A stretch of DNA of 64,000 nucleotides from Colwellia sp. (GTDB lineage: Bacteria; Pseudomonadota; Gammaproteobacteria; Enterobacterales; Alteromonadaceae). Positions 12,793 to 61,741 of the stretch are shown here, in pieces. The notes below the pieces were generated by a model, which was not told the DNA's origin, searched no databases, and saw only the letters and a program-made list of their open reading frames with translations. The stretch spans positions 1 through 64,000 of the forward strand of contig NVWU01000009.1 of NCBI GenBank assembly GCA_002733765.1, read 5' to 3'. Position numbers and translations under genes: made by a program. Each line of letters starts with the position of its first letter. Within the stretch, counting starts at the first letter, position 1.

Positions 12793-13056
12793 ATACCAAA
12801 TCCATTAAGTTAGTTCCCTATCAGAGCTTGCCAGTGGTTTGAGAACAAATATAATTTTTTTGTATATAGTTATTCTATATGAAAGAAATTATATGCAGTT
12901 ATAGAATCACTGGCAAACTCCCAAAAGGCGAGTTTAAAAGGCCTGTAAGCTACGCTATTGATTTTGATAAGGGAATAACCATTCTCTTCAATCAATGCCT
13001 TGCTTCTAAGCCTTTTAAATTTCGCTGAGTGGGAAGAAGCTTATTGGAATTGGTTT
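12793..13056. repeat. MITE-like element, family A copy 2
   Basis: Starts ATACCAAATCCATTAAG and ends GGAATTGGTTT. It shares ACTCCCAAAAGGCGAGTTTAAA, TTTTGATAAGGG, ATAACCATTCTCTTCAAT and TCGCTGAG with the copies at 246-557 and 52382-52646. It has no coding content of its own and abuts the gshA start region: the right end is 18 bases from the proposed TTG. Confidence 0.7.
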
Positions 13057-13074
13057 AACACCGTAGGAATTATT

Positions 13075-14661
13075 TTGACATTATCATTGCACGATTATAT
13101 TAACGCTTTTAACCAAGAGAAAAATTTCAAAGCTCTCGCTAGTATCGGTCGAGGAATTGAGCGTGAAGCCTTAAGGGTTCTGCCAGAAGGAGAACTGTCA
13201 CAGCATGGCCACTATAGTCAATTAGGGGCGGCACTAACGCATAGCGAAATCACTACTGATTATTCTGAAACATTATTAGAATTTATCACACCAGTAAGCT
13301 ACTCGCCTGAAGAAGCCATCGCGCAGCTGCAAGATATTCAAAAATATACTTTTGCGAACATCAATGGTGAATTGTTATGGCCAATGAGTATGCCTTGTTT
13401 TGTTAATAATGCGGATGATGTGTTATTAGCGCAATATGGCAGTTCTAATATTGGTAAAATGAAAACGGTTTATCGCCAAGGATTAAAGAACCGCTATGGC
13501 TCAATGATGCAGGTAATTGCCGGTATTCATTTCAATTTTTCATTTTCTGAAAGTTTTTGGCAAGTAATGCAATCTTTGCATAACGATGAACAAGAGAAGA
13601 GTGATTTTATTTCTGATCGCTATTTTTCAATATTGAGAAACTATAAGCGTTACTGTTGGTTAATTCCGTATTTATATGGCAGTTCACCTGCACTTTGTGA
13701 TTCTTTCTTACAAGGTCAGGCATCGCCGTTGCCTTTTAAAAGGTCACCTCGTGGTTCCCTCTATTTAGAATATGCAACATCATTACGTATGAGTGATTTA
13801 GGTTATACAAGTAGTGAGCAATCATCGTTAAAGATATGTTATAACAATTTACATGATTATGTCGATGGTGTGCAAAAAGCGATTGGATTAAAGTCTGAAG
13901 AATTTGCCGATATTGGTGTAAAGCTTAATGGTGAATATCAGCAACTTAATGGTAATATCTTACAGATAGAAAATGAATTATATGCGCCAATCCGTCCAAA
14001 ACAAGTAATAAAACCAGGTGAAAAACCATCACAAGCATTACGTGATCGCGGTGTAGAATATATTGAAGTACGAGCACTTGATGTTAATCCTTTTGTTGAT
14101 ACCGGTATTAGCATTGAACAAATACACTTTTTAGATATATTTTTAACTTATTGTGCATTTATCAATAATAAAAAATTTGATTGTGATTCACAGCAGCACC
14201 ATGAAAAAAACATGAATGAAGTGGTACTTCGTGGGCGGGATCCTCAATTATTATTATCTGATGTTAACTGCCAAGGTGACGTTACTCAAAAGTCAGTTAT
14301 GACATGGGGTAATGAATTATTTGATGAGATGGCGCATGTAGCAACACTATTGGATAATGCTTATAAAACAACTAATTATAGTGACTCTATCACGAGAGAG
14401 CGGGCGAAAATTAATAACCCAAGCTTAACCCCATCAGCAGAAATTTTATCTATCATAGTAGAACAAGAGCAATGCTTGTCTGAATACTCGCTAGCACAAG
14501 CGTCTAACTACCGCCAAGAGTCTTTTCAACGTGATTATCAATTCTATTCTGAGCAGTATTTTCTTGATAGTGCAGATAAATCTCATCATAGCCAACGTGA
14601 TATTGAAGCGAATGACAAATTGAATTTTGATGACTTTTTAGAGGATTATTTTAACCATTAA
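13075..14661 (+). CDS. gshA: Glutamate-cysteine ligase
   Basis: First, rate-limiting step of glutathione synthesis: ATP-dependent joining of glutamate and cysteine. It aligns throughout with the proteobacterial type-1 GshA family (SIGRGIEREALRV, LGAALTHSEITTDYSETLLEFITP, WPMSMPC). I choose TTG 13075, preceded by AGGA at 13065-13068, giving 528 residues against 518 in E. coli. The frame stays open upstream to 13000, but that part is translation of the family A element and has no counterpart in the family. Element-derived DNA therefore sets its leader. A hairpin at about 14724-14751 may terminate it. Confidence 0.94.
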   Translation: MTLSLHDYINAFNQEKNFKALASIGRGIEREALRVLPEGELSQHGHYSQLGAALTHSEITTDYSETLLEFITPVSYSPEEAIAQLQDIQKYTFANINGELLWPMSMPCFVNNADDVLLAQYGSSNIGKMKTVYRQGLKNRYGSMMQVIAGIHFNFSFSESFWQVMQSLHNDEQEKSDFISDRYFSILRNYKRYCWLIPYLYGSSPALCDSFLQGQASPLPFKRSPRGSLYLEYATSLRMSDLGYTSSEQSSLKICYNNLHDYVDGVQKAIGLKSEEFADIGVKLNGEYQQLNGNILQIENELYAPIRPKQVIKPGEKPSQALRDRGVEYIEVRALDVNPFVDTGISIEQIHFLDIFLTYCAFINNKKFDCDSQQHHEKNMNEVVLRGRDPQLLLSDVNCQGDVTQKSVMTWGNELFDEMAHVATLLDNAYKTTNYSDSITRERAKINNPSLTPSAEILSIIVEQEQCLSEYSLAQASNYRQESFQRDYQFYSEQYFLDSADKSHHSQRDIEANDKLNFDDFLEDYFNH

Positions 14662-14723
14662 TTTTATGCCTTCCTCTAGTATATTACCTAATTGAATTTT
14701 TTCTAAATACCACTCAATAGCAT

Positions 14724-14755
14724 TATTCCTGTTATCTATGAAACGGGAATATTCT
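14724..14755 (+). terminator. Possible terminator after gshA
   Basis: TATTCCTGTT / AACGGGAATA form a stem with a G-T pair and an 8-base loop, followed by TTCTTC rather than a clean T-run. Confidence 0.5.
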
Positions 14756-14866
14756 TCAAAATAAATATCTCTAATACTCAGTGACTGCAAAATACTTGTT
14801 AAAGGTTGCTGAGTAATTCATAACTATGTCATCACTTAAACGATAAATAGACTATTTAAAATAGAC

Positions 14867-14934
14867 AAAAAAAATGCGCTACCGATGAAGGAAGCGCATA
14901 AAAACATGAAACACTAAGGGAATAACATAACTAT
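14867..14934 (-). ncRNA. Candidate small RNA, array unit 1
   Basis: Minus-strand candidate ending at a 7-bp GC-rich hairpin plus T-run (14867-14899), which looks like an intrinsic terminator. Upstream are TTGAAC and an extended -10-like TGATACTCT with a short 15-bp spacer. The predicted transcript is about 68 nt, unstructured at its 5' part (TTATTCCCTTAGTG). This is a prediction only; it could instead be a terminator-bearing repeat with no function. Confidence 0.35.
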
Positions 14935-15021
14935 AAAGTAAGAGTATCAGTGAGCAGATAAGTTCAATTTATTTATTATTTAAATCTACTGATTAAATAA
15001 ATTTCAGTACAGGTAAAAGAA

Positions 15022-15089
15022 CAAAAAAATGCGCTACCGATGAAGGGAGCGCATAAAAACATGAAACACTAAGGGAATAACATAACTAT
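15022..15089 (-). ncRNA. Candidate small RNA, array unit 2
   Basis: Same arrangement as unit 1 with an identical transcript body. The putative -10 is changed to TGCTCT here, so expression may be weaker or start elsewhere, for example at the TATAGT nearer the hairpin. Confidence 0.3.
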
Positions 15090-15177
15090 AAAGTAAGAGC
15101 ATCAATGAGCAGATAAGTTCAATTTATTTATTATTTAAATCTACTGATTAAATAAATTTCAGTACAGGTAAAAGAAC

Positions 15178-15245
15178 AAAAAAAATGCGCTACCGATGAA
15201 GGGAGCGCATAAAAACATGAAACACTAAGGGAATAACATAACTAT
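15178..15245 (-). ncRNA. Candidate small RNA, array unit 3
   Basis: The third unit is truncated just upstream (minus-strand sense) of the TTGAAC at 15273-15278. What it keeps is the block from the putative -35 to the terminator, which suggests this block is the functional part. Confidence 0.35.
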
Positions 15246-15400
15246 AAAGTAAGAGTATCAGTGAGCAGATAAGTTCAATTTATTTATTATTTACTAAATT
15301 CCCTTAGAATTTACTACTAAATTAGCTATATAGTGCCAATTTATTGAGAATTCTGGCATTATCAATTTATTATTAAATAAAAAAGTTCACAGAATCATTT

Positions 15401-16036
15401 ATGGCATTATTGCTTTCCTCTAAAGTTAAATCTATTTTTTTTATAGTGCTCAGTACTTTGTTTTTATCTAGCTGTGCTACACCGCCACCCAAAAATCCTG
15501 AAAATATTTGTGAAATATTTCGTGAGCATCGAGATTGGTATTTCTCTGCAAAAGATGCCAGAGAGCGTTGGGGCGTACCCATTCATGTACCTATGAGCAT
15601 GATGTATCAAGAAAGTTCATTTAGACATGATGCACTGCCACCTAGAGATTATTTATTTGGTTTTATTCCATGGGGAAGAGTAAGTAGTGCATACGGCTAT
15701 TCACAAGCTAAGACGATGACATGGGGTGACTATGTACGAGAAACGGGTAATTCCGGTGCTGATCGTGATGACTTTGATGATGCTATCGACTTTATGGGAT
15801 GGTTTATCTTTAAAACACAAAAAATTAATGGTGTTTCTAAGTGGGATTCTTATAACCAGTATTTAAACTATCATGAAGGTTGGGGTGGTTTTAAACGGAA
15901 AACTTATAAAAAGAAAGCATGGTTGGTCAAAGTATCAAGAAAAGTAGATAACAGAGCCCGGCGTTATTCATCACAATTGAAAAGCTGTGAAGCTGATTTA
16001 AATCATGGCTGGTTATGGCGATTGTTTTTTGGTTAA
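15401..16036 (+). CDS. Lytic-transglycosylase-like (SLT fold) lipoprotein
   Basis: 211 residues. Signal peptide with lipobox SSC (Cys 25), so anchored in the outer or inner membrane facing the periplasm. Residues 58-180 resemble a soluble lytic transglycosylase fold: VPMSMMYQESSF places a likely catalytic Glu at 71, followed by AYGYSQAKTMTWGDY and NYHEGWGGF. Such enzymes cleave peptidoglycan glycan strands. I do not recognise the exact subfamily. It is monocistronic, 107 bases downstream of the tandem repeat array, which runs up to its promoter region. Confidence 0.75.
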   Translation: MALLLSSKVKSIFFIVLSTLFLSSCATPPPKNPENICEIFREHRDWYFSAKDARERWGVPIHVPMSMMYQESSFRHDALPPRDYLFGFIPWGRVSSAYGYSQAKTMTWGDYVRETGNSGADRDDFDDAIDFMGWFIFKTQKINGVSKWDSYNQYLNYHEGWGGFKRKTYKKKAWLVKVSRKVDNRARRYSSQLKSCEADLNHGWLWRLFFG

Positions 16037-30977: not shown

Positions 30978-31054
30978 CGGTGATTAGCGCAGCTTGGTAG
31001 CGCACTTGGTTTGGGTCCAAGGGGTCGCAAGTTCGAATCTTGCATCACCGACCA
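30978..31054 (+). tRNA. tRNA-Pro (anticodon TGG), copy 1
   Basis: 77 nt including encoded CCA. Acceptor CGGTGAT / ATCACCG, anticodon arm CTTGG-TTTGGGT-CCAAG and T arm GCAAG-TTCGAAT-CTTGC all pair. First gene of a four-tRNA operon. Confidence 0.97.
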
Positions 31055-31113
31055 CTTTTTCTTTCTATCTTATTGGAAAGTCCAAGTCTTGGTTTAGAGT
31101 GTCGTCAAATTCA

Positions 31114-31143
31114 GTCGCAAGTTTGAATTTTTCATCACTAATA
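31114..31143 (+). pseudogene. Decayed tRNA-Pro 3' fragment after copy 1
   Basis: GTCGCAAGTTTGAATTTTTC then ATCAC matches the T arm and 3' acceptor of tRNA-Pro with several changes; the T-arm stem no longer pairs well. The 5' half is missing. Confidence 0.6.
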
Positions 31144-31190
31144 ACTTTTTATTCTTTGGAATTTAAAAGTGAAGCTTTTGTAGGTAATGT

Positions 31191-31267
<77 letters not shown>

Positions 31268-31300
31268 TACTTAAAAAAGTAAAAGTAAAAAGATATTATG

Positions 31301-31376
31301 GTGGCTATAGCTCAGTTGGTAGAGCCCCGGATTGTGATTCCGGTTGTCGAGGGTTCAAATCCCTTTAGCCACCCCA
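31301..31376 (+). tRNA. tRNA-His (anticodon GTG)
   Basis: 76 nt including CCA. GTGGCTA / TAGCCAC acceptor, anticodon arm CCGGA-TTGTGAT-TCCGG, and the T arm (GAGGG-TTCAAAT-CCCTT). Confidence 0.95.
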
Positions 31377-31419
31377 TCTTTATTTTATTACATGCCAATG
31401 TAGTAGAAATGATAAAAAT

Positions 31420-31496
31420 CGGTGATTAGCGCAGCTTGGTAGCGCACTTGGTTTGGGTCCAAGGGGTCGCAAGTTCGAATCTTGCATCACCGACCA
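31420..31496 (+). tRNA. tRNA-Pro (anticodon TGG), copy 2
   Basis: Identical in sequence to the tRNA at 30978-31054. The flanking downstream DNA is also related, so this is a duplication of the gene with its decayed tail. Confidence 0.97.
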
Positions 31497-60883: not shown

Positions 60884-61558
60884 TTATTCGCTGTCAGCGA
60901 TACGAATGGATGCTTTAATGATTTGAACCACTTCTTTTGTTTTTCCTCTTCTACTGCCTAATGCTTCAATTTTAGTTAAGCTACCTTCTAAATCTGTAAC
61001 TACTTTACCAAAAACAGTATGTTTACCATCTAAAAAAGGCGTAGGTTTAAAGGTAATGAAAAATTGACTACCATCAGTACCCGGGCCTGCGTTTGCCATG
61101 CTTAAAATACCAGGCTCACTATGACCTATCTCACCATCAAATTCGCCAGCATATTTATATCCGGGGTTGCCAGTACCATTGCCAATCGGGTCACCGCCTT
61201 GGGCCATAAAGCCTGGAATAACTCGATGAAAAATCAAGTCATCATAAAAACCAAGTTTAGTTAAATAGATGGTACTAGAAACATGCATAGGTGCTGAATC
61301 GGTAAATAGCTTGATAGTGAGGTTACCTTGGTTTGTTTGTAGCTCCCAAAAGTAATCTTTACCTTGTGTAAAGGTAAGTAATGGCGGTTTACTTAATTTT
61401 GTTTTCCAAGCAGGATCTGTTTTATCTATTACTGGTTTATCTATTACTGGTTTGGTAAGAGAACTATCTACTTTTTTTATTACCGATTTGCTTTCACAAC
61501 AAGCAGTCAGCGTAATGATTAAAAAAAGGCTAGCAATTATTTTTTTCTTGTTATTCAT
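60884..61558 (-). CDS. Lipoprotein cyclophilin peptidyl-prolyl isomerase
   Basis: 224 residues. Signal peptide with lipobox LTAC (Cys 20), a linker containing a repeated KPVID (residues 36-47), then a cyclophilin domain (about 70-220: [26 protein letters not shown]). Acts on proline bonds of periplasmic proteins while anchored to a membrane. Divergent in sequence from the cytoplasmic ppiB product at 27411-27902. Single gene. Confidence 0.9.
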
Positions 61559-61741
61559 ATTGAATGTCTCATGCTTTTATTTTATGAAATTATAATGACC
61601 TATCAAATATTATCAGGTATTAAGTGTTAGAGGTTAGTGATTTTTACTGAGTGAGATTACTGTTCTCTTGTTCACTGCTGCGACGCCAAGCAGAGAATAA
61701 AATGCCAAACAAAGCACTTAATCTCAGCTTAGTTCATATCA

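Follow-up and report, generated by a model that had tools for sequence, protein, structure and literature searches.

The spacer between the genes for glutamate-cysteine ligase (gshA) and an SLT_4 transglycosylase-like lipoprotein in this Colwellia sp. genome is mostly taken up by a tandem array of three units, and the evidence strongly supports each unit being an autonomous cassette for a predicted small RNA (sRNA) of about 68 nt, read from the minus strand and antisense to neither neighbour. Judged from its elements, the promoter of the units is of the sigma-E type and not the sigma-70 type. Sequence comparison shows the anatomy and strand of the cassettes, the match of their promoter to that of rpoE, their conservation, their amplification and their position beside gshA. 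We consider it likely that the array encodes sibling sRNAs, driven by sigma-E, probably dependent on Hfq and amplified in tandem, that block the translation starts of envelope-protein mRNAs.

Architecture of the array and its predicted RNAs

The window, which is the whole stretch of 64,000 nt analysed, carries gshA at 13000..14661 (plus strand; PF04262, E 4.6e-160), convergent with the array, and the SLT_4 lipoprotein gene at 15401..16036 (plus strand; PF19489, E 1.5e-80), divergent from it; the sense strand of the array is the minus strand. TRF places the array, the only one it reported there, at 14857-15293, with a period of 155, 2.8 copies, 96% matches and a score of 830. Its three units are 155 or 156 bp long and 95-99% alike. 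The first-pass annotation had described three near-identical tandem units with a truncated right-hand one, each containing an ATGCGCT...AGCGCAT hairpin, a T-run and TTGAAC; all of these are found in the sequence, and TRF agrees on the repeat.

On the minus strand, each unit runs from an AT-rich stretch through TTGAACTT, 16 nt and TCTTA to an RNA of about 68 nt that ends in a GC hairpin and a T-run. Promoters were located by pattern match, hairpins by sequence and fold, and RNAs by model R1, whose 67 positions and 61 RNA rows include the window units; all features lie on the minus strand. Unit 1 has its sigma-E-type promoter (GAACTT-N16-TCTTA, an exact match with the same elements as upstream of rpoE) at 15250..15276, its predicted sRNA at 15178..15245 (85.4 bits, E 1.6e-12, with an inferred 5' end) and its terminator hairpin, followed by a U-tract, at 15185..15210, while its upstream AT-rich stretch ends early, at 15293. 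The corresponding promoter, predicted sRNA and hairpin are at 15094..15120, 15022..15089 (81 bits, E 1.1e-11) and 15029..15054 in unit 2, and at 14939..14965, 14867..14934 (84.5 bits, E 2.3e-12) and 14874..14899 in unit 3, the one nearest gshA.

The three window RNAs fold with an MFE of -12.6 kcal/mol and z of -3.3 to -3.9 against dinucleotide shuffles. Their 5' region GTTATGTTATTCCCTTAGTGTTTCATGTTTTT, at 14900..14931 (minus strand) in unit 3 and identical in units 1, 2 and 3, is unpaired in the MFE structure, and most of its columns are invariant or at least 90% conserved among the 61 aligned RNAs; we propose it as the pairing region. The unpaired TTATTCCCTTAGTG stretch of the first-pass annotation is indeed present and unpaired in the MFE structure, although the centroid structure has a weak stem around it.

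RNAalifold returned only 4 pairs because MAFFT had misaligned the hairpin; model R1 is therefore mostly a sequence model, and the conservation of the hairpin was assessed from individual folds of the distinct units and not from a covariation test. By this measure, 141 of the 146 distinct units of the relatives and the window form a hairpin of 5 or more pairs close to the 3' end, with 64 different terminator arm pairs as folded. A terminator scan of 14600-15450 gave 0 terminator-like sites at the settings used, though the hairpin and T-run are plain in the sequence. The diversity of the arm pairs, the strongly conserved unpaired 5' region in the 61 RNAs, and the conserved promoter boxes around a variable spacer (described below) bear out the earlier proposal of a repeated minus-strand cassette for an sRNA of about 68 nt, antisense to neither neighbour.

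None of the 4227 Rfam families searched against the window reached its gathering score on the array, Qrr and PrrF included; the matches were 4 tRNAs only. The best sub-threshold match was ncS54 (25.1 bits, gathering 43), and suhB/mmgR scored 16.8 bits, below its gathering score of 41. Four clustered tRNA genes lie at 30978-31493 of the window. A small protein was rejected as an explanation of the units: ATGTTATTCCCTTAG reads MLFP-stop and is broken by indels in some homologous units (by eye). Upstream of SLT_4, TGCCAATTTATTGAGAATTCTGGCATTAT at 15335-15375 of the window recurs in related loci (by eye) and overlaps the best sigma-70-like site of the region.

Proposed mode of action and candidate targets

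RseA releases RpoE when outer-membrane proteins misfold. RNA polymerase carrying the freed RpoE would initiate at GAACTT-N16-TCTTA of each unit and terminate at the hairpin and U-tract of that same unit, so that the array would produce three RNAs, almost identical in sequence and about 68 nt long. The free 5' stretch of each RNA would offer two elements: UUAUUCCCUUA, complementary to the Shine-Dalgarno-type sequence AAGGGAAU, and UUUCAUGUUUU, complementary to AAAACAUGAAA, which is a start codon with its flanks. Together with Hfq (hfq has one match in the genome), the RNA would pair with the ribosome-binding sites of envelope and outer-membrane mRNAs, ompW being the best candidate, and lower their translation, extra copies raising the dosage. 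We infer the transcription, Hfq binding, targets and repression of envelope mRNAs in this scheme.

We compared pairing at 28 outer-membrane protein (OMP) start regions, comprising all 21 of 21 TonB-type receptor matches and 7 of 9 beta-barrel matches (2 of these 7 below the curated cut-off), with that at 50 gene starts of the window; OMP start positions were picked by script. Whole-region duplex energies (p 0.02, OMP versus control) reflected long structures with gaps; the comparison was therefore based on helices free of gaps. The best ungapped helix averaged -11.4 in the OMP starts versus -9.0 in the window genes (p 4e-5), a signal that 100 dinucleotide shuffles of the seed never equalled. 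The signal is located on the start codon, and ATGAAA starts are frequent among the OMP genes (10/28 versus 3/50 in the control); ordinary signal-peptide codon usage could therefore explain it. When only pairing upstream of the start is counted, the OMP difference is weak (p 0.02) and is reached by 11 of 100 shuffled seeds. The strongest helix of all 78 starts belongs to a control gene of the window, at 60886-61576, read as a cyclophilin-type lipoprotein: it spans 18 bp with G-U pairs and lies just upstream of the ATG. A genome search for the anti-seed with at most 2 mismatches gave 66 sites, 3 of them in the array itself, versus 42 for the reversed control.

For ompW, 30 loci were fetched, of which two (L232 and L244) gave no start and seven from outside the genus (L245-L251) were left out. 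Perfect complementarity at the ompW start extends over 13 nt in the Colwellia genome studied here and over 10, 12, 17 and 19 nt in L233, L234, L241 and L242; the longest stretch seen is 11 nt among 2306 background windows and 9 nt among 84 windows centred on ATGAAA. The remaining 16 of the 21 orthologues have complementarity of 8 nt or less, which lends no support to ompW as a genus-wide target. We regard the targets, ompW included, as suggested by complementarity.

The confounding of the OMP pairing by ATGAAA starts and the restricted pairing with ompW leave some room, which we judge small though appreciable, for sigma-E sRNAs that act mainly away from outer-membrane mRNAs, either on other regulators or by sponging Hfq or another sRNA. 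A possible partner is a putative RNA encoded in the polA-recG interval of the same genome (L221 / L263, G000:C15:149459-149529), which we take to be the position of Spot 42. Speaking for such a role, this RNA (28.6 bits, E 0.08) shares the core TTATTCCCTTTGTGTGTTTCATGTTTTT with the units; its hairpin is a different one, and no sigma-E motif was seen there. Against it, sigma-E control and a micA-like locus favour envelope targets, and the OMP starts beat 100 of 100 shuffled seeds. Direct blocking of envelope-protein translation starts is the reading we prefer.

Promoter class, conservation and dispersal of the cassette

GAACTT-N16-TCTTA occurs in all three units, and its boxes and spacing equal those upstream of the genome's own rpoE, where GAACTTTTTCTAAAATCAGTAGTCTTA is found. 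This rpoE is followed by rseA- and rseB-like genes, with a nadB-like gene beside it (names from translations read). There are six sigma-70-family matches in the genome, two of them in ECF-sized frames. Across the 4.05 Mb of the genome, GAACTW-N16-TCTTA is found only 12 times versus 7 for the reversed control; rpoE, the array's three units and a fourth cassette account for five of the 12. Against our preferred reading stand the presence of a second ECF-type sigma factor, this small genome-wide excess and, in relatives, the loci without a motif and the units without a promoter described below.

In relatives, promoter-bearing units gathered by a pattern allowing spacers of 13-21 have a spacer of exactly 16 in 66 of 66 parsed units (one further row was unparsed). 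Conservation among 60 distinct promoters is 42-95% for the letters of the spacer and 93-100% for the boxes GAACT and CTCTTA, the gathering pattern being responsible for part of the box conservation. A pattern-independent count was made with GAACT-N17-TCT[TGA]A in 80 loci found through the SLT_4 protein. In 68.5 kb of spacer, the array strand has 127 occurrences of the motif and the other strand 2, versus one in 1.44 Mb of flank with both strands counted; gshA was not found in 14 of the 80 loci, for which up to 1.5 kb before SLT_4 was counted as spacer. At least one strict motif is present in 60 of the 80 spacers and none in 20; 14 of these motif-less loci, which include several Cognaticolwellia and Rheinheimera L178, are also without a model match.

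The first-pass annotation had proposed ordinary sigma-70 sRNA siblings with TTGAAC and TACTCT, which we now consider highly improbable. TTGAAC does resemble a -35 element and TACTCT is found in two of the three window units, but the middle unit has TGATGCTCT in place of the suggested '-10' TGATACTCT, and 40 of the 60 distinct homologous promoters have C where TACTCT has its initial T. The conserved box is CTCTTA, just downstream of TACTCT, and the promoter is therefore of the sigma-E type, even though the gathering pattern forces part of this conservation. A sigma-70 consensus scan of 14600-15450 found 4 sites, none inside the units, whose elements equal those of the rpoE promoter. The first-pass annotation had neither the sigma-E class of the promoter, nor the resemblance to micA in position, nor the units without promoters in relatives.

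The array unit matches 37 of 38 same-genus genomes at E<1e-6, the exception being G035, and 6 of 21 genomes from other genera of the family at E<1e-3. The 80 named loci contain 149 model matches at E<=0.01, every one of them on the minus strand and within the spacer before SLT_4 (24 in loci where gshA was not found). A match is present in 55 of the 80 loci, and 32 have two or more units, with a maximum of 8; gshA was found upstream in 66 of the 80 loci and in 44 of the 55 with matches. Among the 149 units, 81 have a strict motif, 18 a loose motif and 50 no recognisable promoter. In 49 of 55 loci a motif, strict or loose, is present in the SLT_4-proximal unit, which would be the first transcribed in the sense of the array, and the promoterless units come after the promoter-bearing ones. 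An extra small palindrome replaces CCCTTAGTG in promoterless units of L025, L030 and L036 (by eye). Taken together, the comparisons strongly support the cassette anatomy, the strand, the sigma-E-type promoter and the amplification, as read from sequence.

The first-pass annotation held that a unit turning up at many unrelated loci as a plain dispersed repeat would speak against an sRNA family. In this genome the unit is no such repeat: a model search returned the three units, one cassette on contig C15 and the weak polA-side relative. The three units and the C15 copy make the family multicopy, as highly similar putative sRNA genes. The C15 copy is a single cassette that has uvrD-like and response-regulator genes ahead of it and a transposase-like gene behind it (neighbours of dispersed copies were named by reading translations). 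Cassettes near uvrD-like genes are found in four genomes (G000, G017, G018 and G027), and G011 has two extra cassettes, one after a trpA-like gene and one near birA/murB-like genes, beside transposase-like genes. The dispersed copies fetched from other species retain the promoter boxes, core and hairpin, with GAACC replacing GAACT in L252. The gshA-side array of G011 (L258, G011:C1:3411500-3416500) meets a transposase-like gene just past a sigma-E motif, and its units neighbouring that gene retain promoter and hairpin.

Dispersal in several species, the transposase genes adjoining some copies (L258-L260 and the C15 copy) and an array size varying from 1 to 8 units are what a mobile or selfish repeat of the MITE or REP type, merely bearing promoter- and terminator-like letters, might produce. 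We find such a repeat extremely improbable: changes fall mainly in the spacer of the promoter and in stems whose folding is retained, and not in the boxes or core, strand and place are identical in 149 of 149 matches, and the copy near uvrD-like genes recurs in G000, G017, G018 and G027. We give practically no weight to a cis element (a terminator of gshA, a site where its 3' end is processed, or an element acting upstream of SLT_4), since, for all that the array takes up most of the gshA-SLT_4 spacer, the hairpin on the gshA strand is followed by A's and not T's, units also occur in other neighbourhoods, and the sigma-E boxes are on the opposite strand.

Position beside gshA and relation to known sRNAs

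In E. coli, the sigma-E-dependent gene micA is flanked by gshA and luxS and encoded on the opposite strand, and the same sources describe MicA as an RNA of Enterobacteriaceae with a partial Lactobacillus match (PMC2956633, PMC4618604). MicA pairs with ompA and depends on Hfq; the Colwellia genome has an hfq match. Like MicA (RF00078), the array units specify a predicted RNA of about 70 nt with a sigma-E promoter, and in the window they are found on the 3' side of gshA on the opposite strand. They differ in that the other neighbour is SLT_4 instead of luxS and in being tandem and multi-copy, E. coli MicA being single. The Rfam MicA model (membership at 41 bits or more) has no match at the array in the window or at the fetched loci searched, which rules out formal membership; its best same-genus match in 61 genomes scored 28.9 bits and lies elsewhere in its genome. 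Position at gshA, orientation and sigma-E control therefore agree in spite of the covariance model. We read the array RNA as probably acting like MicA and possibly descending from the same ancestral gene, MicA membership being unproven.

Rheinheimera L175 and L183 and Aliidiomarina L176 have gshA-SLT_4 spacers of 138-139 nt with exactly one sigma-E motif, on the array strand, followed by a predicted RNA that carries CTCCCTGGA, CTCCCTAGA or CATCATCCCCTGGATT and then a terminator. The RNA is also seen in a third Rheinheimera, L178, in a 121-nt spacer without a strict motif. These single cassettes likely represent the ancestral state. Many Colwellia loci have one more cassette, of the TCCCTGGA type, adjoining gshA after the array: 12 of 80 loci have the strict pattern no more than 155 nt from gshA, the cassette of L108 and a variant of it in L110 were identified by eye, and inspection of the window by eye showed none. 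Another single cassette of the sigma-E type, TTCTTCCCTGGAT...GGCGCGTCA, differs from the array units and adjoins gshA in a number of Colwellia loci, for example at 2143-2277 of L030 and 2330-2463 of L025 (reverse-complement coordinates); none was seen in the window.

A broader model, which we offer tentatively and hold to be possible more than probable, is that this gshA-linked sigma-E sRNA locus goes back to a single ancestral gene, from which Colwellia and related bacteria built up arrays of as many as about 8 units; in these, promoterless units, some of them with a second hairpin, come after promoter-bearing ones. Under envelope stress, leaky terminators would in that case yield graded multi-unit RNAs, and copy number would set the strength and target range of the sigma-E response.

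RybB is another sigma-E sRNA. VrrA of Vibrio and FoxJ of Fusobacterium are sigma-E dependent as well, and VrrA represses ompA (PMC2628432, PMC11005410); VrrA differs from the array RNAs in its length of 140 nt and in being reported, in the excerpts, as one gene. LhrC1-5 of Listeria monocytogenes are multicopy, are induced by cell-envelope stress and have a UCCC-containing single-stranded stretch predicted and tested to block the Shine-Dalgarno sequence (PMC4132741). The array resembles them in being multicopy, in its presumed link to envelope stress and in a single-stranded stretch complementary to the Shine-Dalgarno sequence. From what the excerpts give, LhrC1-5 differ in LisRK control, a length of 111-114 nt, three CU-rich motifs and their occurrence in Firmicutes; the two were compared in sequence through Rfam only.

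Near-identical neighbouring genes also encode the sibling sRNAs PrrF1/2, OmrA/B, AbcR1/2 and the csRNAs (PMC4211561), which the putative sRNA genes of the array resemble in this respect. The tandem siblings tabulated in that review mostly have two copies, and the csRNAs 2-6, and its text makes no mention of rpoE. The PrrF pair also yields PrrH, a longer read-through RNA (PMC4211561), a precedent for the promoterless units of relatives. Multicopy envelope-stress sRNAs (Listeria LhrC), tandem siblings and sigma-E sRNAs are thus known from published sources. Among the matches listed from the open-licence literature, in titles and abstract beginnings, there was no published sigma-E sRNA array and no description of the Colwellia array; a Shewanella sRNA survey that names Colwellia once (PMC5471319) lacks the terms gshA, RpoE and tandem by term search.

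The sigma-E sRNAs of the cited literature are, among the matches listed and as far as the excerpts go, single genes. If our reading is correct, a sigma-E sRNA would occupy the gshA position outside Enterobacteriaceae, in arrays whose size varies among related species. This would provide a natural copy-number series in which to ask why bacteria retain redundant sRNAs, and a view of how the envelope-stress response of marine bacteria evolves in its RNA arm.
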